Origin: Bacteroidia bacterium
GTDB taxonomy: Bacteria > Bacteroidota > Bacteroidia > UBA4408
NCBI GenBank assembly: GCA_020845635.1
Contig: JADLFI010000018.1
Span: 1-64,000, forward strand
Reading direction: 5' to 3'
Length of the DNA: 64,000 nt
Below the pieces are notes generated by a model. It was not told where the DNA came from and ran no database searches. It worked only from the letters and a program-made list of their open reading frames with translations. This document shows positions 436-32,089 of this stretch, piece by piece (position 1 is the stretch's first letter; each line of letters begins with the position of its first letter). The position numbers and the translations under genes were made by a program.

Positions 436-2625
436 TTAGTTTTTAATTACTTTTCCTTGGCCTAAAATGCTGCCTTCATTGTCGGTTATTTGATAAAAAT
501 AGATACCAGTAAGTAATTCTTCAATGCTAATAAATTCAATATTTTCTGTCAGTTTTTTATTAAGTACTTGGGCACCTTGCATATTGAAAATATTTACTAA
601 ACTGCTGGAGGATGCGTTTTGAATAGTAAAACTATTTGTTGTCGGATTGGGATATACTTTAATTTCTTTATTTTCATTAACAACATTTACGGTAGTAACT
701 GGAAAACCAAAATCAACAAGGCTCCTATACCATGTGCTAAAACCTGTTGTCCCAAGCCACAGATTGTCGCCAAAAACTGTATTCGTGTTGGCGTATGGTT
801 CGTAACAACCTAAGGCTACTGAACCGTAATAACATGGTAAATTGTCTGACATGTCTGAAAAACTGCTTAACGAAATTGCAGTATTTATATATTTTGAACC
901 AGTAAATAAGTAATCACCATAGCCATATGCATCACCAATATTTGAGGCCATAACAGTAAAACTAGTAGCTGATGTGTCAGCATAATTCGTTAAACTTGTT
1001 GGACCAATGGCTTGTGGGCTAGTAAATATTTTACCTCCCGCTCCAGTAATGTATAAGAAAGGACCTCCACTTGTTGCCCCAGCAAAAGCTGTCCATGTTA
1101 AACCATTGTCGTTACTTCTAAAAACACCATTACCTGTAGCGTACAAATAGCTACCATATTTTTGCAAATCATTGCAAGCTAGTGTACTTACTTGTGTCCA
1201 AGTATTTGCTTGGTCGGTGCTGCGGTATATTCCTCCTGTGGTTGCTGCTATAATTGCGTTCCCATTGATATATAAATCTTTTACTGTTTTATAACCAGCA
1301 GGAGTGTTGGTTATTGGCAAGCCAACATGGCTTTGAACCCAAGTTACTCCATTATCATTGCTACTCCAAACACCACCATCAGTACCAACGTAGTATTTGT
1401 TGCCTGCACCAAAACTCACACAAAAAACTTGAGTGCTCAACGAACTAAGAAGTGTTCCGCCAAAATCGTATCCTGCAACCACAAACCTACTCCATGTTAA
1501 ATTTGTAGGATTGAATTTAAAAAAACTTCCTGTATTATTTATTGCAAATAAAATTCCATTTGCTGTAATTAATTTGTTTATATCATACATATATGGGGTT
1601 TCAAGTGTTTCTGACCATGTGCTTCCATTATTATTTGATTTTACTAATTTATCTGAAGAATTAATTGAATTCACAAATCCAAGATAAATGCCATTTGAAT
1701 AATTTAATAAGGTTGGATTTGAACCATTATCTAAAGTCGAAGGAGACCATGAATTTCCATTTAATTGAAATAATTGATTTGCTGTTCTAGCGAATAATGT
1801 GTTATTAACTATTCTTGGTTCACTTGCAGCTGCTCCGGTAATGCCATTATTAATTAAACTCCAAGAAATGCCTTCATCTGCTGTAGTATATATTTCAATT
1901 GAATTAAACTTATGACAATAAATGTTTCCATTAAAATTGAGCAAACCTTGCATATTTGGTATAGCACCAGATATTCCAGCATTTGAAAGATTAAAAGTTT
2001 GCCCATTGTCGGTAGAACGATATATACCACCATTAATACTTACCAACACTGTAGAATTCAATACTGCAATACGCCTACCATTTCCTAAATTATTACCATA
2101 TGACCACGATAACCCATCATTATCTGAATAATAAACATGAGCTAATCCAACTGCTAACAACCTATTCCCAATCTTATCAATATCAACTATAGAAGATGTA
2201 CTATCAGCAGAGACAATACCTGTATTTTGAGATTGCCAACTTAAACCATTATTGGTGCTAACAAAAATCCCTTTTGAAGTAGCTGCTAGTATTTTCGTTG
2301 GAAGAAAATATAAATCATTTATTGTCACTGATGGAAAATTTTCAACTTGCCATGTATCTCCATTGTCATCGCTATGAAATAAGCGAGAACCCAAAATGTA
2401 TAATCTATTTCCATTTTGTTGTATTTTAGAGATATATCCAAGCCTACCCTCCGGTCCTGAATTATTCCATTGGGCTTTGATGGCAAGTGTAGAAAACATT
2501 AAAGCAATTAAAAGTAAATATTTTTTACTCAAATAGCGTTTGTTTTTTAAATTGTAGTACTCATTTTTTTCTTTTTTGATTTGGTATTCGTGCTTGCTGA
2601 GCAGGCCGTGAGACTTCGTGTTCAT
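436..2625 (-). CDS. Secreted BNR/sortilin-like repeat protein with T9SS type A sorting domain
   Basis: A predicted cell-surface or secreted protein of about 729 residues. A hydrophobic signal segment (YLLLIALMFSTLAIKAQ) is followed by many repeats containing S-x-DNG-x-x-W or STDNGQTF, the Asp-box pattern of BNR/sortilin/YCF48 beta-propellers. The last ~75 residues hold the T9SS type A sorting domain, starting at VYPNPTTNSF and ending GQGKVIKN. T9SS would carry it across the outer membrane. It is a paralogue of the next gene (2684-4825). The start is uncertain: the ATG at 2625 adds about 30 polar residues before the hydrophobic core and lies just past the neighbour's terminator. A TTG near 2532 would give a normal-length signal peptide. 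The ligand or substrate is unknown. Confidence 0.85.
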   Translation of the reverse strand: MNTKSHGLLSKHEYQIKKEKNEYYNLKNKRYLSKKYLLLIALMFSTLAIKAQWNNSGPEGRLGYISKIQQNGNRLYILGSRLFHSDDNGDTWQVENFPSVTINDLYFLPTKILAATSKGIFVSTNNGLSWQSQNTGIVSADSTSSIVDIDKIGNRLLAVGLAHVYYSDNDGLSWSYGNNLGNGRRIAVLNSTVLVSINGGIYRSTDNGQTFNLSNAGISGAIPNMQGLLNFNGNIYCHKFNSIEIYTTADEGISWSLINNGITGAAASEPRIVNNTLFARTANQLFQLNGNSWSPSTLDNGSNPTLLNYSNGIYLGFVNSINSSDKLVKSNNNGSTWSETLETPYMYDINKLITANGILFAINNTGSFFKFNPTNLTWSRFVVAGYDFGGTLLSSLSTQVFCVSFGAGNKYYVGTDGGVWSSNDNGVTWVQSHVGLPITNTPAGYKTVKDLYINGNAIIAATTGGIYRSTDQANTWTQVSTLACNDLQKYGSYLYATGNGVFRSNDNGLTWTAFAGATSGGPFLYITGAGGKIFTSPQAIGPTSLTNYADTSATSFTVMASNIGDAYGYGDYLFTGSKYINTAISLSSFSDMSDNLPCYYGSVALGCYEPYANTNTVFGDNLWLGTTGFSTWYRSLVDFGFPVTTVNVVNENKEIKVYPNPTTNSFTIQNASSSSLVNIFNMQGAQVLNKKLTENIEFISIEELLTGIYFYQITDNEGSILGQGKVIKN

Positions 2626-2683: not shown

Positions 2684-4825
2684 TTATTGTTTAATAAAAG
2701 TAGTAACTAAATTCTTATCTTCAATACCTAACACTTGCAAATGATACATTCCCTTTGCAAAAGAGCTTATATCAATACTTACCTTACCCGCCTTTACATT
2801 GGTTTGCGCCTGATATACGCTTTGCCCCAAAGCATCAAATATGGTGATAACGGCATTGCCTTCGGTGGCATTAATCAGTTCCAGGGTAAGGTTATTGCTG
2901 GCAGGGTTGGGGTAAACAATACCTCCTGTTGTGCTTTTTTCCTTTTTTGTTGTGGTTACGGGAATGCTATACCCAAAATCATTTAAGCTGCGGTAAAAAG
3001 TGCTCATGCCATTGGTACCCAGCCACAGCTTGCCGTTAAAAACAGCCATCGAAAAACCGTTGCTTAAATAGCTGTACCTTTTAGCCTGGCTTGGGATACG
3101 GTAAAACGGAAGGTCTGGAGCTACCTGTACCAAATCAGAAGGCGTGGCGCTGCCTAATAAGGTGGTATTCAGTTTCCAAACTCCTGCTTCGTTGTAATAA
3201 AAAACAAGAGTGTCGTAAGCGGCTACTGAATAGGCAAAGCCGGGGCTGCCGGATGTAATGGGGGTAAATGAGGCCAAGCCGCTTACAGGGGCATATTTTA
3301 AGGTATTGTTGCCGGTAGATACAAACAAATACCCGTCTGTGGCTGCAAAACCAAGAATGCCTGTATTGGTGAATGCTGTAAATTGTGACCAGTTATTGCT
3401 ACTGCCAAGCTTATAAATCTTTGTTCCTGCACAGTACAATACGCCATCGTATTTTAAAAACTGCTGCATTTTGGCTCCATTTGTGCTTGTACATTGTGTA
3501 AAAGTTTGGGCATCATCGGTACTGTAATATATGCCGTTATCGTTAGCTATATACAGCGTGTCATTAGGAAAGCTGCCGGAAATAAACATATCATACACAT
3601 TGCGTGTTGGGATAGCTCCTGATGCCGGTATGCCGGTATAAGACTGAGTATAGCTTACTCCATTGTTAATGCTTTTCCAAACCCCGCCTGCTGTGGCTAA
3701 ATAAATAGTGCCGTTACTGCGTTTCTTAATGTCAAGTACACCATATTGAGCATAAGTGTTGGATGAATAATTTTGATTATAAGGTGAAAATCTTGTATAG
3801 GAAGTTTGTGTGCTGTCGTAAATATAACCGCCTACACTCCATAATGCGTATAAATTATCTGATACTGAAAGCTTTTGCACAATCATACAATTTACACCAT
3901 TGCAATCCTGCCACGTTGCCCCATTATCATCTGAAAAAACTAAACCATCATAACTATAACCATTAATCCCAAAATACCGACCCGATGAAAAGCCGGATAA
4001 AATAAAGTTAGGTGTCAGATTTGAATTTATATTCCATTGGGATGAGCTAAAATCATATTCAAAAACACCTGTTGTCATCTTTTTAAAAATCCGGCTATTG
4101 TAAGAGTAAAACTTGCCCTGTGAGCTTCCTGTTATACCGCTGTTTACAGAAGTCCAGGATAAGCCATTATCGGTTGACTTATAAAAATCAGTGTTATTCC
4201 CATTGATATAATAGCTGTTGTTAATATGTAATAGTTCTGTAAATGCCGGTGAAGCGGGCAATCCGGTTGAGTTTAAATTTTGCCATGTAAGTCCGTTATC
4301 AACTGTAGTATAAAATTCCAATCCGTCTGTCGCCAGAATATAGGAACCAACTACTATTGCTTTAAATATTATGGGTGCATTGGAAATAGGATCCCAATGC
4401 TGACCTTCATTATCTGAATAATAAATCCCTGAATTAAACCTTGTAATTAACCTATTGTTCAATAATTTAGTTATGTAAAATGCACTGGTTGTGCTATCCC
4501 CACCTGACAAACCTTGATTTGATGTTACCCAAGTTATGCCGCCATCTGCACTACAAAAGATACCTTTGTTTGTAGATGCTACCATTTTTGAATTAGTAAA
4601 CACTAAGTCATTCATAGTAAACCCGGCAAAAGTAGATACCCTGTTCCAGTTTAATCCGTTATCGGTAGATTTGTATAAGCCGATTAGATTAGTGGAATAT
4701 AATATACCATTATTTTCAATAATTTTTATAATACCTACGGCTTCAGGCCCCGTTTGCACCCATTGTGCCCTACTTTGCAAGATGCAAATAAGCATCAGCA
4801 TTAAAAGAGTAAGTGTTTTTTTCAT
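2684..4825 (-). CDS. Secreted BNR/sortilin-like repeat protein with T9SS type A sorting domain
   Basis: A protein of 713 residues with a clear signal peptide (MKKTLTLLMLMLICILQSRAQ). Repeated Asp-box motifs follow (STDNGLNW, SADGGITW, TVDNGLTW, STDNGLSW, SDDNGATW), which suggests one or more beta-propellers. The C-terminal sorting domain starts at VYPNPASNNLTLEL and ends FIKQ. It is a paralogue of 436-2625 in overall plan. Its sorting-domain DNA, however, is nearly identical to that of the remnant at 4877-5722 and not to that of the closer paralogue. Family knowledge predicts export by T9SS and proteolytic removal or anchoring of the tail. The bound ligand is unknown. Confidence 0.87.
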   Translation of the reverse strand: MKKTLTLLMLMLICILQSRAQWVQTGPEAVGIIKIIENNGILYSTNLIGLYKSTDNGLNWNRVSTFAGFTMNDLVFTNSKMVASTNKGIFCSADGGITWVTSNQGLSGGDSTTSAFYITKLLNNRLITRFNSGIYYSDNEGQHWDPISNAPIIFKAIVVGSYILATDGLEFYTTVDNGLTWQNLNSTGLPASPAFTELLHINNSYYINGNNTDFYKSTDNGLSWTSVNSGITGSSQGKFYSYNSRIFKKMTTGVFEYDFSSSQWNINSNLTPNFILSGFSSGRYFGINGYSYDGLVFSDDNGATWQDCNGVNCMIVQKLSVSDNLYALWSVGGYIYDSTQTSYTRFSPYNQNYSSNTYAQYGVLDIKKRSNGTIYLATAGGVWKSINNGVSYTQSYTGIPASGAIPTRNVYDMFISGSFPNDTLYIANDNGIYYSTDDAQTFTQCTSTNGAKMQQFLKYDGVLYCAGTKIYKLGSSNNWSQFTAFTNTGILGFAATDGYLFVSTGNNTLKYAPVSGLASFTPITSGSPGFAYSVAAYDTLVFYYNEAGVWKLNTTLLGSATPSDLVQVAPDLPFYRIPSQAKRYSYLSNGFSMAVFNGKLWLGTNGMSTFYRSLNDFGYSIPVTTTKKEKSTTGGIVYPNPASNNLTLELINATEGNAVITIFDALGQSVYQAQTNVKAGKVSIDISSFAKGMYHLQVLGIEDKNLVTTFIKQ
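2766..2911. repeat. Direct repeat copy 1, encoding part of a T9SS sorting domain
   Basis: This 146-bp stretch matches 4959-5104 at about 144 of 146 positions by eye. Both copies encode the core of the sorting domain (YPNPASNNLTLELINATEGN onward). The flanking codons diverge at once on both sides, so the module has been copied or converted recently. Confidence 0.85.
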
Positions 4826-5962: not shown

Positions 5963-7570
5963 CTACAAAGGCTGTTTGCTTTTGAAATAGTGGATAATAT
6001 CATTGATATCAAAGGCGTTGAAACAATGGGATAGAGGCAATATACCTTTTTGAGCAGCATAAACACCGTACATTATATCATCTAAACCTTTAATGCTATG
6101 AGCATCGGGGTTTATACTAATCAGAACTCCCTTGTTCAAGCAGTAATCTAACAAACGCCAATCAATATCTAAACGATGTGGATTAGCATTTAATTCAATA
6201 ATAACATTGTTTTGGGCACAGGCATCAATAATTTTATGATAATGCAAAGGATAACCCGGGCGCGAAAGTAATAAACGTCCGGTCATATGCCCCAGCATTG
6301 TGGTATAAGGGTTCTCAATGGCTTTTAGCAAACGGTTTGTGGCTTTTTCAATATCCATTCGCAACACACTATGCACCGAAGCAATAACAAAGTCAAACTC
6401 CTTCAATACTTCTTCTTCATAATCAAGTGCTCCATCTATTAATACATCGCTTTCTATCCCTTTGAAAATTTTGAAAGGAGCCAACTCAATATTCAATTGA
6501 TTAATTTCGTGGTGTTGTAGGTAAACTCGTTCAGGACTTAAGCCGTTGGCATAAAAAGCAGAACGACTATGATCACTGATGCCGATATAATGCAAACCTT
6601 TATTTTTTACGGCCAAAGCCATATCTTTTACCGAAGAAGTGCCATCGCTAAAGGTTGTATGCACATGAAAAATACCCGAAATATTTTCCGGCTGTATGAT
6701 TTTATTCAAATCATCAGAATTGATTTTTGAATTGCTGATATTTATCTTGTCACGATAAACAGGCTCAATATAAGGATAGCCAAGATATTCAAAAATTTGT
6801 TCTTCTGAGCCTTGAGGAGGCAATCCCAATGGGTTAATCTTTAATGATTCAAAAAAACTTTGTGGCCCTGTGCTTTGAAGTAATGAAACATAAAAGTTTT
6901 CTTTTGTTACCGGAATAAATTTTACTCTAAAGGCCAAATCTAATTCATCAATTTTACACTCTTTCTCGGTGCTTAGTATTTCTATAATCTCTATAATTTC
7001 GCATTTGCGTCTGAAATCACCGGTTATAGCAAACAAGGCAGCAGGATATTTTTCTTGCAGATACCTTAGTAAAGCATAAGCTGCTTCTTCAATTTGAGCC
7101 CATAAAAACTTATGTTCATTAGATTTAATAAACTCTATTGATTTTTTTATTGACTCCTGAGTCTTTTCGCCAAAACCTTTTAACGAAACTAGTCTATTTT
7201 CATTGCAAGCGTATAATAATTCGCCCATACTTTCAATCCCTAACTCTCTCCATAGCAACGAAATTTTTTTAGGCCCTAAACCTTTTATATTAAGCATTTT
7301 TACCACACCCTCAGGAACTTCTTGAATTAGTTCATTCATTTCGGAAGTGGTTTTATGCTGTAATAATTCAATAATCTTAGCCGAAATTCCTTTACCAATT
7401 CCTTCTATTGTTTCAATCTCAGACGGAGCTAAAGCGCTTAATTCTATAGGGAGTTTATCAATTTTAAATGAAGCCGCCAACAACGATTTTATTTTAAAAG
7501 CATTGCCATCAAGAATCTCGAGAAGATTTGCTGTAAGCTTAAGAAATTGAGAAATTTGTTTATTGGTCAT
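5963..7570 (-). CDS. PolX-like protein: HhH plus PHP domain, polymerase site degenerate
   Basis: A protein of 535 residues with the layout of bacterial PolX. Helix-hairpin-helix segments come first (IEGIGKGISAKI near 55-66, IKGLGPKKISLLW near 95-107, LKGFGEKTQESI near 130). A remnant of the Pol-beta-type nucleotidyltransferase core follows, then a PHP phosphoesterase domain from about residue 300 with HVHTTFSDGT, GISDHS, a glutamate in GIESDV, ASVHSV and NPDAHS. The PHP metal ligands look intact, so 3'-5' exonuclease or phosphoesterase activity is plausible. The polymerase motif, normally G-S-x-R-R followed by D-x-D, reads TGDFRRKCEIIEIIE, with no aspartate pair visible. DNA synthesis is therefore doubtful. 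It is a single gene followed by no clear terminator. Confidence 0.85.
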   Translation of the reverse strand: MTNKQISQFLKLTANLLEILDGNAFKIKSLLAASFKIDKLPIELSALAPSEIETIEGIGKGISAKIIELLQHKTTSEMNELIQEVPEGVVKMLNIKGLGPKKISLLWRELGIESMGELLYACNENRLVSLKGFGEKTQESIKKSIEFIKSNEHKFLWAQIEEAAYALLRYLQEKYPAALFAITGDFRRKCEIIEIIEILSTEKECKIDELDLAFRVKFIPVTKENFYVSLLQSTGPQSFFESLKINPLGLPPQGSEEQIFEYLGYPYIEPVYRDKINISNSKINSDDLNKIIQPENISGIFHVHTTFSDGTSSVKDMALAVKNKGLHYIGISDHSRSAFYANGLSPERVYLQHHEINQLNIELAPFKIFKGIESDVLIDGALDYEEEVLKEFDFVIASVHSVLRMDIEKATNRLLKAIENPYTTMLGHMTGRLLLSRPGYPLHYHKIIDACAQNNVIIELNANPHRLDIDWRLLDYCLNKGVLISINPDAHSIKGLDDIMYGVYAAQKGILPLSHCFNAFDINDIIHYFKSKQPL

Positions 7571-7625
7571 GCTTCGTAATTACAAAAATGAAACAACAAC
7601 CACAAATGTAACCTAAATATAATTT

Positions 7626-9065
7626 CTACAATGTTTTAATTTCAGCTACTAATTCAGTAAGTGCTTTTTTGGCATCGCCAAAGAACATACTACACTTTGA
7701 ATCGTAAAACAACAAGTTATCAATACCTGCATAACCGGCATTCATACTGCGTTTATTAACTATTATATTTTTGGCTTTATCTACTTCCAAGATAGGCATT
7801 CCATAGATTGGCGATGAAGGATCGGTTTTAGCCGCAGGGTTTACCACATCATTAGCTCCTACTACCAACACTACATCAGTTTGCTCAAACTCAGGATTAA
7901 TATCATCCATCTCTACCAATTTTTCGTAGGCTACATTACTCTCGGCCAGTAAAACATTCATGTGGCCGGGCATACGTCCGGCAACGGGGTGTATGGCATA
8001 TTTAACTTCAACTCCTCTATCTTCAAGCAATAGCTCAAGTTCATGAATTATGTGTTGTGCTTGGGCTACGGCTAAGCCATAACCGGGAACAATAACTACT
8101 TTTTTGCTGTAATTCATTAAAATAGCTAAGTCGGTAACATTAATATCTTTAATAGAGCCTTTGGTAGCAGTGTCTGTAGAGTCGCTTGCAGACGACCCGC
8201 CAAAGGCACCAAAAATAACATTGCTTAATGGGCGGTTCATAGCTTTACACATTACCAGAGTAAGCAAAGTACCGGCCGAACCTACCAATATACCTCCTGT
8301 AAGCATAATTTTATTGTCGTACAAGAAACCACCAAAAGCAGCAGCCAAACCGGTAAATGAATTTAACAATGAAATTACCACCGGCATATCGGCTCCTCCA
8401 ATAGGTATTGTAAATAATATTCCATAAATAGCTGCAGCCACAAATAACAAATAAACCAAAGTAATGTTGCCTCCGGTAAATACCAAATAAGTACCAAAGG
8501 CCAATACGGCAATCATCACTAGGGTGTTAATGATATTATAGGAAGGTAGTCTGATAGGCTTAGCCATAGAACCATTTAATTTCATGAAAGCAATGATACT
8601 TCCCGAAAAAGATACGGTACCTATAATTAAACCGGCCATAATGGCTGCCAAAGTTCCAATAAGGCTTCCGGCAGAACCGCTTAATGCTAAGGCGGCAACA
8701 TATACAGGGTCTTGTAATTCGGTATATAAATGGTTGTACTCAATTAAAGAAATTAAGGCTGCACAAGCACCGCCCATCCCGTTAAATATGGAAACCAATT
8801 CGGGCATTTTGGTCATTTGTACTTTCTTGGCGGTAAGCCATCCTATTACAGTACCTATAGCTATAGCTGCAAAAATAAGCCCGTAAATAATTCCGCTTAC
8901 TTTTTTGTCATGCAAAAACAAAGTCCCTACAATGGCCAATGTCATACCGGCTGCGGCAACTAAATTACCATTGCGTGCGGTTTTTGCATTTCCCATCATT
9001 TTAAGGCCTACAATAAAGGTGATGGATCCTATAAGATAACAGATTTCGAGTAAATTTTGTGTCAT
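7626..9065 (-). CDS. pntB: NAD(P) transhydrogenase subunit beta
   Basis: This is the beta subunit of the membrane transhydrogenase, which couples proton entry to hydride transfer from NADH to NADP+. It has 479 residues, the usual length. The N-terminal ~270 residues form about nine membrane segments. The last ~180 residues are the NADP(H)-binding domain III, with VVIVPGYGLAVAQAQH, HPVAGRMPGHMNVLLAE, VVLVVGANDVVNPAA and KRSMNAGYAGIDN. It is the last gene of a three-gene operon, 43 nt after pntAB. Its role is to supply NADPH for biosynthesis and redox defence. Confidence 0.97.
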   Translation of the reverse strand: MTQNLLEICYLIGSITFIVGLKMMGNAKTARNGNLVAAAGMTLAIVGTLFLHDKKVSGIIYGLIFAAIAIGTVIGWLTAKKVQMTKMPELVSIFNGMGGACAALISLIEYNHLYTELQDPVYVAALALSGSAGSLIGTLAAIMAGLIIGTVSFSGSIIAFMKLNGSMAKPIRLPSYNIINTLVMIAVLAFGTYLVFTGGNITLVYLLFVAAAIYGILFTIPIGGADMPVVISLLNSFTGLAAAFGGFLYDNKIMLTGGILVGSAGTLLTLVMCKAMNRPLSNVIFGAFGGSSASDSTDTATKGSIKDINVTDLAILMNYSKKVVIVPGYGLAVAQAQHIIHELELLLEDRGVEVKYAIHPVAGRMPGHMNVLLAESNVAYEKLVEMDDINPEFEQTDVVLVVGANDVVNPAAKTDPSSPIYGMPILEVDKAKNIIVNKRSMNAGYAGIDNLLFYDSKCSMFFGDAKKALTELVAEIKTL

Positions 9066-21143: not shown

Positions 21144-22277
21144 ATGAAAAAAATAACTTTTCTTTTAATTAGTGTTTTTGTAGTGATACATAACACCTCT
21201 ACTGCCCAAATTTCTCTTAATATTTCTGATTTTCCGTTGAAATCAATATATAGAGTACAAACCGACACGACAACCAAGATTTCGCTCGAGGAAACCGGAC
21301 CCAATCTACTTTGGGACTTTTCTTCTTTTGTTTCAGGAGAAGTTTACACTGTATCAAACAATTACCAAGAGTGCGCACCTAATCCCATTTTCCCGGGAGC
21401 TAATTTTATGTTATGCGACACTTTTAGCCCTAATACCCCTGATCAATCTATATCAGTTAATTATTATAGCATTAGCCCTAGCGGTATTTTACATTGTGGT
21501 GAGTTTAGTGATAATATTTATTCTACTTCCATACGTAAATTTTATCCTTACTACAATATTCATACGCATCTTCCCCTAACCTACGGTAGCTATGACTCTT
21601 TAAAAGTAAAAATAATAGAAACACAAATACCGAAAAGTAACCGAAATGGAGCTGACTCAGTTATTACCATATCCTATTACACAGTAATAAAACATGTTGA
21701 TGCATGGGGCGATATAATTTTGCCATCAGGCGAAAGGTATCAGGCTTTGCGTTTGAGCTATATTGATTACGGTGGAGATTCAGCAATCTTTGACCATACC
21801 CCAAATGAAGGATGGGTGTGCAGTACAGAAAATGATATGCGAATAAATTATTATTCCGATGCAACCAAGTATCTCTGGTATGTAAAGGGACATGGAATAG
21901 TTGCAAATGTAAGAGACGATTATGCTTCCTTGGAAAATTATTACGAGGATGGGATAAGGATGAATCGAGAAATCAATCATAGAAGATATTATTTTTTTGA
22001 ACCTATGAAATTGGATAGTGATTCTTCCGGTAAATTATTAGACGACTTTCAGGTTAGCCCCAATCCGGCAAGCAAAGAAATTCAAATTAAACTTACAAAT
22101 GATATTGTTATTGAACGAATAGAAATATTTGATGCTTCAGGCAAAATTCAGAAAGGCAATACTGAAATTAGTAGAAATAATATTAAAATAGACATATCAG
22201 ATTTACCCCAGGGCTCTTATTTTCTTAACATTATAAGCAATAAGGGACAAAAGTCACGCAAATTTGTGAAAAAATAA
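21144..22277 (+). CDS. Secreted protein of unknown function with T9SS type A sorting domain
   Basis: About 377 residues from the ATG at 21144, which gives a clean signal peptide (MKKITFLLISVFVVIHNTSTAQ). An earlier in-frame ATG at 21033 would add 37 mostly hydrophobic residues and is less likely. A -7-like TAAATTTG lies at 21109-21116. The body has no domain I recognise. The C-terminus has the sorting domain (FQVSPNPASKEIQIKL, then FVKK at the end). The lack of Asp-box repeats sets it apart from the two large cargo proteins at the start of the window. Confidence 0.8.
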   Translation: MKKITFLLISVFVVIHNTSTAQISLNISDFPLKSIYRVQTDTTTKISLEETGPNLLWDFSSFVSGEVYTVSNNYQECAPNPIFPGANFMLCDTFSPNTPDQSISVNYYSISPSGILHCGEFSDNIYSTSIRKFYPYYNIHTHLPLTYGSYDSLKVKIIETQIPKSNRNGADSVITISYYTVIKHVDAWGDIILPSGERYQALRLSYIDYGGDSAIFDHTPNEGWVCSTENDMRINYYSDATKYLWYVKGHGIVANVRDDYASLENYYEDGIRMNREINHRRYYFFEPMKLDSDSSGKLLDDFQVSPNPASKEIQIKLTNDIVIERIEIFDASGKIQKGNTEISRNNIKIDISDLPQGSYFLNIISNKGQKSRKFVKK

Positions 22278-28742: not shown

Positions 28743-29873
28743 ATGCCTTATTTAAACCAAAATAACCAAAGAATTACCGAGTTGGATGGATTGCGTGGAA
28801 TGGCCATTTTTGCAACGGTTATATATCATTATACTAATAATCTAATCAATGCCGATGCATCTAATTATCATCTATTGCTTAAATCACTTACTCAGTTTTT
28901 TTATACCTGTCTTGATATGTTTTTTATTCTTTCAGGCTTTCTATTGGGAGGGATATTGTTACGTTACAAGAACTCGCCTAATTACTTCAAGGCTTTTTAT
29001 GCAAGACGATTTTTCAGGATAGTTCCCTTATATTTATTTTTATTAGTATCGGTTTTAATTATTTGTCTATTTAATATTGGACGAGGCACTACTTGGTGGT
29101 TTAACCCCGAAATTCCTTATTGGGCTTATTTTACATTTGCCCAAAATATTTTTATGGGAATAAAGAATACTCTTGGCAACCACTGGTTAATCCCCACTTG
29201 GTCGTTAGGAGTTGAAGAGCAGTTTTATTTGATTGTTTCGGTTTTAATCTTCTTCACTTCCCGAAAATATCTGGTTTTTATCCTTTTACTGGGAATGATT
29301 TGTTCGCCTGTTTTCAGATATTATTATGTCACTTCCGGTAGTACTGCCGAGGCTTATCCCTTGTCTTTTTCTGCTTTTTTACATTGCCGCTTAGATTCAT
29401 TATTCGGGGGTATTTTACTGGCAGTCATTCACCAAAATGCTAAAGCTTTTAATTGGGTTAAGCAACATCATCAAATTCTTTACCTGTTGGTTGTTATACA
29501 TATCGGAATAACCTTCTTATTCTCTATTGGCAAATGGCATATTCAAATTTATTGGGTATATAGCTGGTTTGGCTTTATTTATATGCTTATTCTGCTTCTG
29601 GTTTTAGCACATCCAAATAACGTATTCGCCAGGCTCTCACGTATTCCGTTTTTTGTTAATTTGGGTTTGTATTCATACAGTATTTATCTTTTTCATGAAC
29701 TAATTTTAGGATTGTTTTTCTTCTTAATTCCTAAAAAATTACCTCAAATAAATTCTCTGTTAGATTTGACAATGGTGGTTTTTTGTACTGTCCTTACATA
29801 CTTTTTTGCCCGCTTTGTATATCTCAACTTTGAGAAAAAGTTCATGGCTATGGGGCACTCAATAAAATATTAA
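28743..29873 (+). CDS. Membrane acyltransferase family 3 (OafA/YrhL-like)
   Basis: An integral membrane protein of 376 residues with about ten hydrophobic segments. The family marks are the N-terminal ITELDGLRGMAIFATVIYHY with the catalytic histidine, the arginine-rich YARRFFRIVPLYLF, and TWSLGVEEQFYL. Such enzymes transfer acetyl or other acyl groups onto surface glycans such as O-antigen. No glycan cluster is adjacent, so the acceptor is unknown. It is divergent from the histidine kinase gene. Confidence 0.92.
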   Translation: MPYLNQNNQRITELDGLRGMAIFATVIYHYTNNLINADASNYHLLLKSLTQFFYTCLDMFFILSGFLLGGILLRYKNSPNYFKAFYARRFFRIVPLYLFLLVSVLIICLFNIGRGTTWWFNPEIPYWAYFTFAQNIFMGIKNTLGNHWLIPTWSLGVEEQFYLIVSVLIFFTSRKYLVFILLLGMICSPVFRYYYVTSGSTAEAYPLSFSAFLHCRLDSLFGGILLAVIHQNAKAFNWVKQHHQILYLLVVIHIGITFLFSIGKWHIQIYWVYSWFGFIYMLILLLVLAHPNNVFARLSRIPFFVNLGLYSYSIYLFHELILGLFFFLIPKKLPQINSLLDLTMVVFCTVLTYFFARFVYLNFEKKFMAMGHSIKY

Positions 29874-29971: not shown

Positions 29972-30002
29972 TTTGCAATTTAATAAAGTATTACTACATT
30001 TG
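29972..30002 (+). promoter_or_regulatory. Promoter of the small PID-CTERM gene
   Basis: TTTG (29972-29975), a 19-nt spacer and TACATTTG (29995-30002) match the Bacteroidota -33/-7 consensus well. The leader to the ATG at 30045 would be about 38 nt. Confidence 0.65.
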
Positions 30003-30044: not shown

Positions 30045-30224
30045 ATGAAAAAAGGTAACATTCTTTCTCTTGCATTTTTTACTACAGCTTTAGTACTTTC
30101 TGCAACTCCTCTTTTTGCTATGCCTCCAAATGCAACTCCAATTGATGGCGGTTTATCATTAGTATTGGGTTCTTGCGCTGTTTACGGTGTTAAGAAGATC
30201 AGAGACGCTCGTAAAAAGAACTAA
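30045..30224 (+). CDS. Small PID-CTERM-type sorting protein, 59 residues
   Basis: An N-terminal signal peptide (MKKGNILSLAFFTTALVLSA ... PLFA) is followed after only about eight residues by PNATPIDGGLSLVLGSCAVY and a basic end (GVKKIRDARKKN). A Pro-Ile-Asp-Gly-Gly motif, one hydrophobic helix and a basic tail are the plan of the PID-CTERM sorting domain of Bacteroidota. That domain resembles PEP-CTERM tails, which are thought to be processed by exosortase-like enzymes. Here there is almost no passenger, so the mature product would be a tiny membrane-held peptide or the sorted remnant itself. It has its own consensus promoter and a terminator, which argues for a real, well-expressed gene. No exosortase gene is nearby. 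Confidence 0.8.
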   Translation: MKKGNILSLAFFTTALVLSATPLFAMPPNATPIDGGLSLVLGSCAVYGVKKIRDARKKN

Positions 30225-30251: not shown

Positions 30252-30282
30252 CCTCCTTTCCACAAGAAAGGAGGATTTCTTG
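30252..30282 (+). terminator. Rho-independent terminator of the small PID-CTERM gene
   Basis: A 9-bp perfect stem (CCTCCTTTC at 30252-30260 with 30266-30274) has a 5-nt loop, followed by ATTTCTTGTTTG. It lies 27 nt after the stop codon. Confidence 0.75.
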
Positions 30283-30403: not shown

Positions 30404-32089
30404 ATGCAACAACTAATTGAATGTGTTCCTAACTTTAGTGAAGGAAACAATATGCAGATAATTAATCAAATTACTCAAGTAATTGAAAATACAGAAGGTG
30501 TAAAACTACTTAATGTTGACCCCGGGAAAGCCACTAACCGCACCGTTGTTACTTTTGTAGGGTCGCCCGATGCAGTAGTTGACGCTGCTTTCAAAGCCAT
30601 CAAAAAAGCAGGCGAGTTAATTGATATGTCAAAACATAAAGGTGAGCATCCGCGCATGGGAGCTACTGATGTTTGCCCGCTTATTCCGGTATCAAACATT
30701 TCAATGGAAGAAACAGCTGAATACGCCAAAAAATTAGCTCAAAAAGTAGGCGCTGAACTCAACCTCCCTGTTTATCTCTATGAGGCTGCCCAGCCCAATA
30801 AGAACAGAAGTAACCTGAGTATTATCAGAGCCGGTGAGTATGAAGGCTTTTTTAAAAAAATAAAACAGCCCGAATGGAAACCCGATTTTGGACCTACTGA
30901 GTTTGATACAAAAAGAGGCGCAACTGTTATTGGAGCGCGCGATTTCTTAATTGCTTATAACATTAATCTTAACACCACTTCAACCAGACGAGCTAATGCT
31001 ATTGCCTTTGATGTACGCGAAGCTGGACGTGTTAAACGAGATGGAGACCCTTTAACCGGCAAAATTGTAACTAATCCTGATGGCAGTCCGATACATATCC
31101 CCGGAAGCTTAAAAGCGGTAAAAGCTATAGGATGGTATATTGAAGAATATGGTATTGCCCAAATTTCAATGAATCTTACCAATATTAATATTACACCGGT
31201 ACACATTGCTTTTGATGAGGTTTGTAAGAAAGCAAACGAAAGAGGAATTAGAGTTACAGGATCTGAAATTGTTGGGTTGGTTCCGCTTAAGTGTATGTTG
31301 GATGCCGGTAAATATTTTCTTGAAAAACAACAACGATCTGTTGGTGTGCCTGAAAGCGAGTTGATTAAAATAGCCGTTAAATCTATGGGTTTAGAGGATT
31401 TAGCTCTATTTAACCCACGTGAAAGAATTATTGAGTATATCCTTGAAGATAAAGCCAAAAGTCGTTTGGTAGGTATGTCATTAACCGAGTTTGCTAACGA
31501 AACATCAGCCGAAAGTCCTGCCCCTGGTGGAGGGTCTGTTTCGGCTTATGTAGGCGCCTTAGGCATTGCTTTGGGCACTATGGTAGCCAACTTATCCTCA
31601 CATAAAAAAGGTTGGGACAGCCAATGGAAATTCTTTAGCGACTGGGCTTTGCAAGGTCAAATCCTAAAGGATAAAATGATGAAGCTGGTTGATGAAGATA
31701 CTTTGGCATACAATAAAATTATGCAAGCCTTTACTCTTCCTAAAGAAACAGATAATGAGAAGAAAATTAGAAGCGAAGCTATACAAGAGGCTACAAAATA
31801 CGCTATTCTTTCCCCTTATAATATGATGAAAGTGGCTTTCGAGAGCCTTGACCTGATGAAAGCTATGGTTGAAAAAGGGAATCCAAATTCTGTAACCGAT
31901 GGTGCGGTTGGTGCATTATGTGTAAGAACTGCTATAGGTGGAGCTTTGTTGAATGTAAAAATTAACGCTACTTCCTATAAAGATAAAGCCTTTGTGAACC
32001 AGCTTATAGCTGAAGGCGAGAAAATGTATGAAGAGGCGCAGCAGATAGAGAAAGAAATATTAGATTCTGCAGCTAAATTATTGGTATAG
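30404..32089 (+). CDS. ftcD: Glutamate formimidoyltransferase / formimidotetrahydrofolate cyclodeaminase
   Basis: A bifunctional enzyme of about 561 residues from the ATG at 30404 (MQQLIECVPNFSEG, the exact family N-terminus). The N-terminal ~330 residues are the formimidoyltransferase (HKGEHPRMGATDVCPLIP, NLPVYLYEAAQ, GARDFLIAYNINLNT). The C-terminal ~200 residues are the cyclodeaminase (AESPAPGGGSVSAYVGALG). It moves the formimino group of formiminoglutamate from histidine breakdown onto tetrahydrofolate and releases ammonia. No hutH, hutU or hutI lies in the window. A degenerate formimidoylglutamase relative is at 45053. Confidence 0.96.
   Translation: MQQLIECVPNFSEGNNMQIINQITQVIENTEGVKLLNVDPGKATNRTVVTFVGSPDAVVDAAFKAIKKAGELIDMSKHKGEHPRMGATDVCPLIPVSNISMEETAEYAKKLAQKVGAELNLPVYLYEAAQPNKNRSNLSIIRAGEYEGFFKKIKQPEWKPDFGPTEFDTKRGATVIGARDFLIAYNINLNTTSTRRANAIAFDVREAGRVKRDGDPLTGKIVTNPDGSPIHIPGSLKAVKAIGWYIEEYGIAQISMNLTNINITPVHIAFDEVCKKANERGIRVTGSEIVGLVPLKCMLDAGKYFLEKQQRSVGVPESELIKIAVKSMGLEDLALFNPRERIIEYILEDKAKSRLVGMSLTEFANETSAESPAPGGGSVSAYVGALGIALGTMVANLSSHKKGWDSQWKFFSDWALQGQILKDKMMKLVDEDTLAYNKIMQAFTLPKETDNEKKIRSEAIQEATKYAILSPYNMMKVAFESLDLMKAMVEKGNPNSVTDGAVGALCVRTAIGGALLNVKINATSYKDKAFVNQLIAEGEKMYEEAQQIEKEILDSAAKLLV

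Follow-up and report, generated by a model that had tools for sequence, protein, structure and literature searches.

The DNA analyzed here, referred to as the window, is a stretch of 64,000 nucleotides from a Bacteroidia bacterium, and the gene under study encodes a protein of 59 residues (Table 1). A sequence-only reading had described the product as a PID-CTERM protein with hardly anything beyond its sorting signals. This description was confirmed: the open reading frame occupies exactly the positions listed, and residues 31–54 matched the NCBIfam model PID_CTERM (NF046080) with 32.3 bits (cut-off 26). Hydropathy, charge and the structural model yielded the N-terminal signal peptide, single helix and basic tail expected of this family. 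Signal-peptide cleavage after A25 is probable (the site was placed by rule), and both prolines of the adjoining MPPNAT stretch were retained in the orthologs (alignment of four genomes). The AlphaFold model was of low confidence (mean pLDDT 71, pTM 0.34) and contributes only a prediction of two helices (residues 3–19 and 33–58). A Pfam search with the protein returned no family, and tblastn against PLSDB gave two matches, both weak and partial. A Burkholderia match (L217) was regarded as due to chance.

Table 1. Features of the 59-residue gene and its surroundings, in window positions
Feature	Position	Strand	Basis or remark
Acyltransferase (Acyl_transf_3, PF01757), upstream neighbor	28743..29873	+	kept in all four genomes
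Bacteroidota-type promoter, TTTG-N19-TACATTTG	29972..30002	+	kept in orthologs; consensus PMC9723704
CDS, 59-residue PID-CTERM protein (ATG...TAA, stop codon counted)	30045..30224	+	NF046080 match; dN/dS over four orthologs
Signal peptide, residues 1-25, MKKGNILSLAFFTTALVLSATPLFA	30045..30119	+	sequence, hydropathy
Whole "passenger", residues 26-31, MPPNAT	30120..30137	+	sequence
PIDGG sorting motif, residues 32-36	30138..30152	+	NF046080; invariant in four orthologs
Hydrophobic segment of sorting helix, residues 37-48, LSLVLGSCAVYG	30153..30188	+	hydropathy; modelled helix
Cys44 codon	30174..30176	+	position is Gly in 60/74 PID-CTERM proteins, Cys in 10/74
Basic tail, residues 49-59, VKKIRDARKKN, net charge +5	30189..30221	+	sequence
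Intrinsic terminator, 9-bp stem, 5-nt loop, GGAGG hairpin	30252..30274	+	near-invariant in all four orthologs
Glutamate formimidoyltransferase/cyclohydrolase fusion, downstream neighbor	30404..32089	+	kept in G002, G003
T9SS type A sorting domain of another gene	442-657	-	
T9SS type A sorting domain of another gene	2687-2917	-	
T9SS type A sorting domain of another gene	22053-22274	+	

Orthologs, each of exactly 59 residues, were detected in three other genomes of the same genus (G001, G002 and G003) and aligned with no indels. The gene is under purifying selection: in pairwise comparisons among the four orthologs dS was 1.05–1.87, dN 0.08–0.21 and dN/dS 0.06–0.16, the changes fell mostly at codon position 3, and the strongest constraint was in the PID-helix-tail region (pN 0.065, vs 0.205 in the signal peptide). 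The acyltransferase gene directly upstream was common to all four orthologs, and the ftcD-like gene downstream was present in two of the three relatives; the latter probably is unrelated, since it starts past the terminator. The promoter has the form described for Bacteroidota sigma-A, with a -7 box TAnnTTTG (PMC9723704), and both boxes were kept in 4/4 orthologs; the one difference, a T in G002 in place of C, falls within the -7 box where the consensus sets no constraint. A sigma-70 hexamer site at the same positions was rejected, as a sigma-70 scan gave chance-level sites only. Because the promoter is of the phylum's own form, the gene appears to be genuine and transcribed on its own, and the promoter, terminator and conserved frame that the sequence-only reading had proposed or looked for are thus all present. 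A short frame in an AT-rich setting could be a chance ORF or a decayed remnant, but this explanation is refuted by the low dN/dS, the lack of indels and the conservation of promoter, terminator and synteny, and its probability is negligible.

The near-empty passenger had been taken as unusual and hence as a hint of a signalling, decoy or structural peptide, and this part of the earlier reading did not hold. In the class sample (119 genomes plus genomes of the window's family, with the window's order represented by only eight), 74 PID-CTERM proteins scored above threshold. Their median length was 73 residues, most had 55–87 residues, and a passenger domain was not evident. In the three longest (118–149 residues), the signal peptide likely follows an internal start; two very short proteins resemble fragments or start-site errors. 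In a phylum-wide sample, every PID-CTERM match among those listed was in an open frame of at most 183 residues. Tiny size without a passenger domain is therefore the normal form of the family, with 59 residues near its lower end, and as the same small size recurs across class and phylum, the empty passenger of this protein is not odd. The gene is genuine and conserved, and its product has an ordinary size for a family that is already recognized. In seven genomes (G017, G026, G041, G050, G082, G107 and G118), small PID-like genes without an NF046080 match were found beside xrt, and thus the curated model fails to capture some members of the family.

That the protein gives rise to a secreted peptide signal, or acts as a decoy titrating the exosortase, is very improbable and finds no support, although any cleavage product would have just ~6–10 residues. 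No receptor or regulator gene linked to the 59-residue gene was seen, and the linker varies among relatives and is rich in Pro. In addition, most genomes had a single detected PID-CTERM protein, likewise tiny, so a decoy would lack any further PID-CTERM client to act for.

An XrtX-like exosortase was present in 52/52 PID-CTERM-bearing genomes and in 22/67 others (119-genome class sample; Fisher p 2e-16, inflated, as are all p-values here, by phylogenetic dependence). At least seven of those 22 genomes had a below-threshold PID-like gene beside xrt, and approximately half of the 74 PID-CTERM genes were located directly upstream of an exosortase gene. PID_CTERM, XrtX and the XrtX-associated membrane protein are numbered consecutively in NCBIfam, and the system was thus already recognized by curators; among the papers searched, none was found that names PID-CTERM or XrtX or that puts a PID-CTERM protein to a biochemical test. 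Within the exosortase core, Cys, Asn and Arg were invariant in 83 sequences. One exosortase match (L142, G011:C4:278856-279353) contained an internal TGA, which may reflect either gene disruption or faulty assembly.

The sequence-only reading had suggested looking in the same genome (G000) for a partner exosortase-like gene and for other short PID-CTERM proteins, and both were found, the genome having two exosortases. A canonical XrtX (186 bits) is encoded at C18:170523, on the same contig as the 59-residue gene. It forms a trio at 170 kb (L032) with a 78-residue PID-CTERM protein and a gene for an XrtX-associated membrane protein (56 bits, below the cut-off of 75). The second exosortase (G000:C15:90946-91452) belongs to the exosortase/archaeosortase superfamily (52 bits with TIGR04178, cut-off 23) and has its catalytic core, C96, N134, R137 and H156, in place. 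It falls outside exosortase X (NF046081; 141.8 bits, under the 170 cut-off), and its grouping with the XrtX sequences as one clade was rejected (AU p 0.012). Its adjoining genes, asd and a 6-pyruvoyl-tetrahydropterin-synthase-like gene, are housekeeping, and synteny there was uninformative. In none of the four genomes was an exosortase gene found close to the 59-residue gene.

The 59-residue and 78-residue PID-CTERM proteins differ within the sorting helix. At motif position D+10, the 78-residue protein adjacent to XrtX is of the predominant Gly type and the 59-residue protein is of the Cys type (Cys44; see Table 1 for counts). All ten Cys-type proteins came from 7 genomes, each with an exosortase of the second type (designated DIV) or of the G053/G115 type; the replacement of Gly by Cys is thus confined to genomes with certain non-XrtX exosortases, in few independent lineages. 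The Cys-type genes of G053 and G115 were each immediately upstream of the gene for the G053/G115-type exosortase. Five contig-database loci (L209, L211, L212, L213 and L216) had a fatty-acid-hydroxylase-like gene followed by a Cys-type PID-CTERM gene. In the ORF lists, an exosortase gene came next at L209, L212 and L216; G053, of which L211 is apparently the record, likewise has an exosortase gene there, which makes four of the five loci. One exception was G009, which had the same locus type but Gly at the Cys position. The DIV and G053/G115 exosortase groups were each well supported in the tree. A quick first tree (83 rows) placed DIV on the same side as G053/G115, which a careful subset tree did not confirm; the latter neither established nor rejected a single clade uniting the two (AU p 0.18). 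A lipobox at Cys44 was also considered and rejected: small residues preceded the Cys in 10/10 proteins, yet they are standard before that position, which makes such a match cheap.

It is possible, though unlikely, that the canonical XrtX processes the 59-residue protein and that the second exosortase has another function. The XrtX gene and the 59-residue gene are on one contig, and some XrtX genomes had several dispersed PID-CTERM genes and one exosortase (G061 had five such genes). However, within the window's family, orphan short PID-CTERM proteins of the Cys type occurred in 5/5 genomes with the second exosortase and in 0/3 without it, and the helix residue differs from that of the XrtX-adjacent protein. 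XrtX, the less likely partner, has its own adjacent Gly-type protein.

The gene directly upstream of PID-CTERM genes encoded a T9SS type A sorting domain (TIGR04183) in 33/68 cases, compared with a background of ~100–150 such domains per genome (six genomes checked, a lower bound in most), or ~4–5% of genes by our own estimate of gene number. A profile built from these tails matched 36/57 same-strand upstream genes vs 1/77 other neighbors, a count that depends on construction of the profile from the same tails, whereas the TIGR04183 count is independent. The upstream T9SS cases were distributed over 22/25 families, with gaps mostly below 100 bp. After removal of the last 85 residues, 30 upstream T9SS proteins still joined one BLAST group, although single linkage is a lenient criterion when proteins are rich in repeats, and one of the 30 also had relatives away from PID-CTERM genes. 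Complete upstream T9SS genes encoded ~800 to 2000 residues, with varied N-terminal domains (DUF3494 ice-binding-like, LTD, PKD). Several loci also had a divergent Wzz/BY-kinase gene and ABC polysaccharide exporter genes beside the PID-CTERM/T9SS genes.

In G106 (L097:1879-5058 and 6349-8001), two PID-CTERM genes ~4.4 kb apart each followed a T9SS-tailed protein, and the same C-terminal end on both of the latter suggests a duplicated pair. In G061, the T9SS protein upstream of one PID-CTERM gene (L169:336-2945) had an N-terminal DUF3494 ice-binding-like domain (130 bits), and three further PID-CTERM genes likewise followed T9SS-tailed proteins.

For the 59-residue gene itself, the T9SS tie is indirect. 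A T9SS-tailed protein was encoded two genes upstream in G001 and G002 (2016 residues in G002), with the acyltransferase gene between; in the window genome and G003, the same slot was occupied by a histidine-kinase-like gene on the other strand, and no T9SS gene adjoined the 59-residue gene. Since relatives of this gene adjoin genes for an exosortase, T9SS surface proteins and sugar-polymer export, its role probably lies in cell-surface assembly rather than in signalling.

Taken together, we somewhat favor the view that the Cys-type PID-CTERM protein is a very small exosortase substrate and an accessory in building a surface layer of T9SS proteins and exopolysaccharide. It would be exported by Sec and lose its signal peptide, and the C-terminal helix would then keep it in the inner membrane, leaving the basic tail on the cytoplasmic side. 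An exosortase, more likely the second, non-XrtX enzyme, would then cut at or near PIDGG, and the short remaining peptide, presumably coupled to a lipid or glycan, would assist in assembling surface material from T9SS proteins and exopolysaccharide. A modified lipid is conceivable as the coupling partner. A fatty-acid-hydroxylase-family gene lies directly upstream of the Cys-type gene at L211:4971-5852, with like genes in L209, L212, L213 and L216, and three upstream neighbors of PID-CTERM genes match the ornithine lipid hydroxylase OlsE. Against this reading stand the lack of an adjoining T9SS gene in the window genome and G003, the lack of a nearby exosortase gene, the Gly in G009 and the tree, in which the two exosortase groups did not resolve as sisters. 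It is rather improbable that the helix stays uncleaved and that the protein serves as a small membrane peptide with a structural or regulatory function, for example as a subunit of an exosortase or T9SS assembly. The signal peptide and helix do make up nearly the whole protein, and the PID-helix-tail region is its most conserved part, but many families keep the PID motif, and it occurs together with exosortases whose catalytic residues are intact.

PEP-CTERM proteins usually have sizeable passenger domains, and the 59-residue protein has none. It shares with PEP-CTERM/EpsH (XrtA) sorting (PMC1569441) the tripartite C-terminal signal, the exosortase and the link to exopolysaccharide genes, but its motif is PIDGG rather than PEP and the second exosortase scored far below the 8TM_EpsH cut-off (14.2 vs 105.6 bits). 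The PID-CTERM/exosortase X system (NF046080, NF046081, NF046082) is similar in its signal peptide, short linker, PIDGG, helix, basic tail and tiny size, and the same genome carries such a gene trio; the 59-residue protein differs in having Cys in the helix, no adjacent exosortase gene and a probable partner below the exosortase X threshold. In Flavobacterium johnsoniae, a Bacteroidota organism with T9SS, deletion of xrtF impairs biofilm formation and surface colonization (PMC10936215); XrtF belongs to a different exosortase family and its substrates were left to future work in that paper, but by analogy the phenotype is consistent with a surface role. The MYXO-CTERM/myxosortase system (PMC11980579) also combines a Cys in the sorting signal with surface anchoring. 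However, its protease is of a different family, and its Cys is in the motif before the helix, not inside it.

A tentative extension to the whole family is that PID-CTERM proteins carry no passengers and are instead dedicated peptide partners of T9SS surface proteins. An inner-membrane exosortase would charge a short peptide onto a lipid or glycan, which would help to fix or assemble the neighboring T9SS adhesin and polysaccharide, and the 59-residue protein would represent a branch with Cys in the helix, served by an exosortase of its own that has yet to be named. The association with upstream T9SS cargo and exopolysaccharide genes and the Cys-for-Gly replacement with non-XrtX exosortases were found in no paper searched, and the former is a more interesting lead than the empty passenger. 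Few substrates are known for the exosortase systems of Bacteroidota. The Cys/Gly split provides a candidate sequence rule to pair substrates with exosortases, and PID-CTERM and its exosortase are a gene pair simple enough for deletion tests. Near-empty substrates encoded beside T9SS cargo and polysaccharide exporters suggest that two separately studied routes of surface anchoring may meet in one process.
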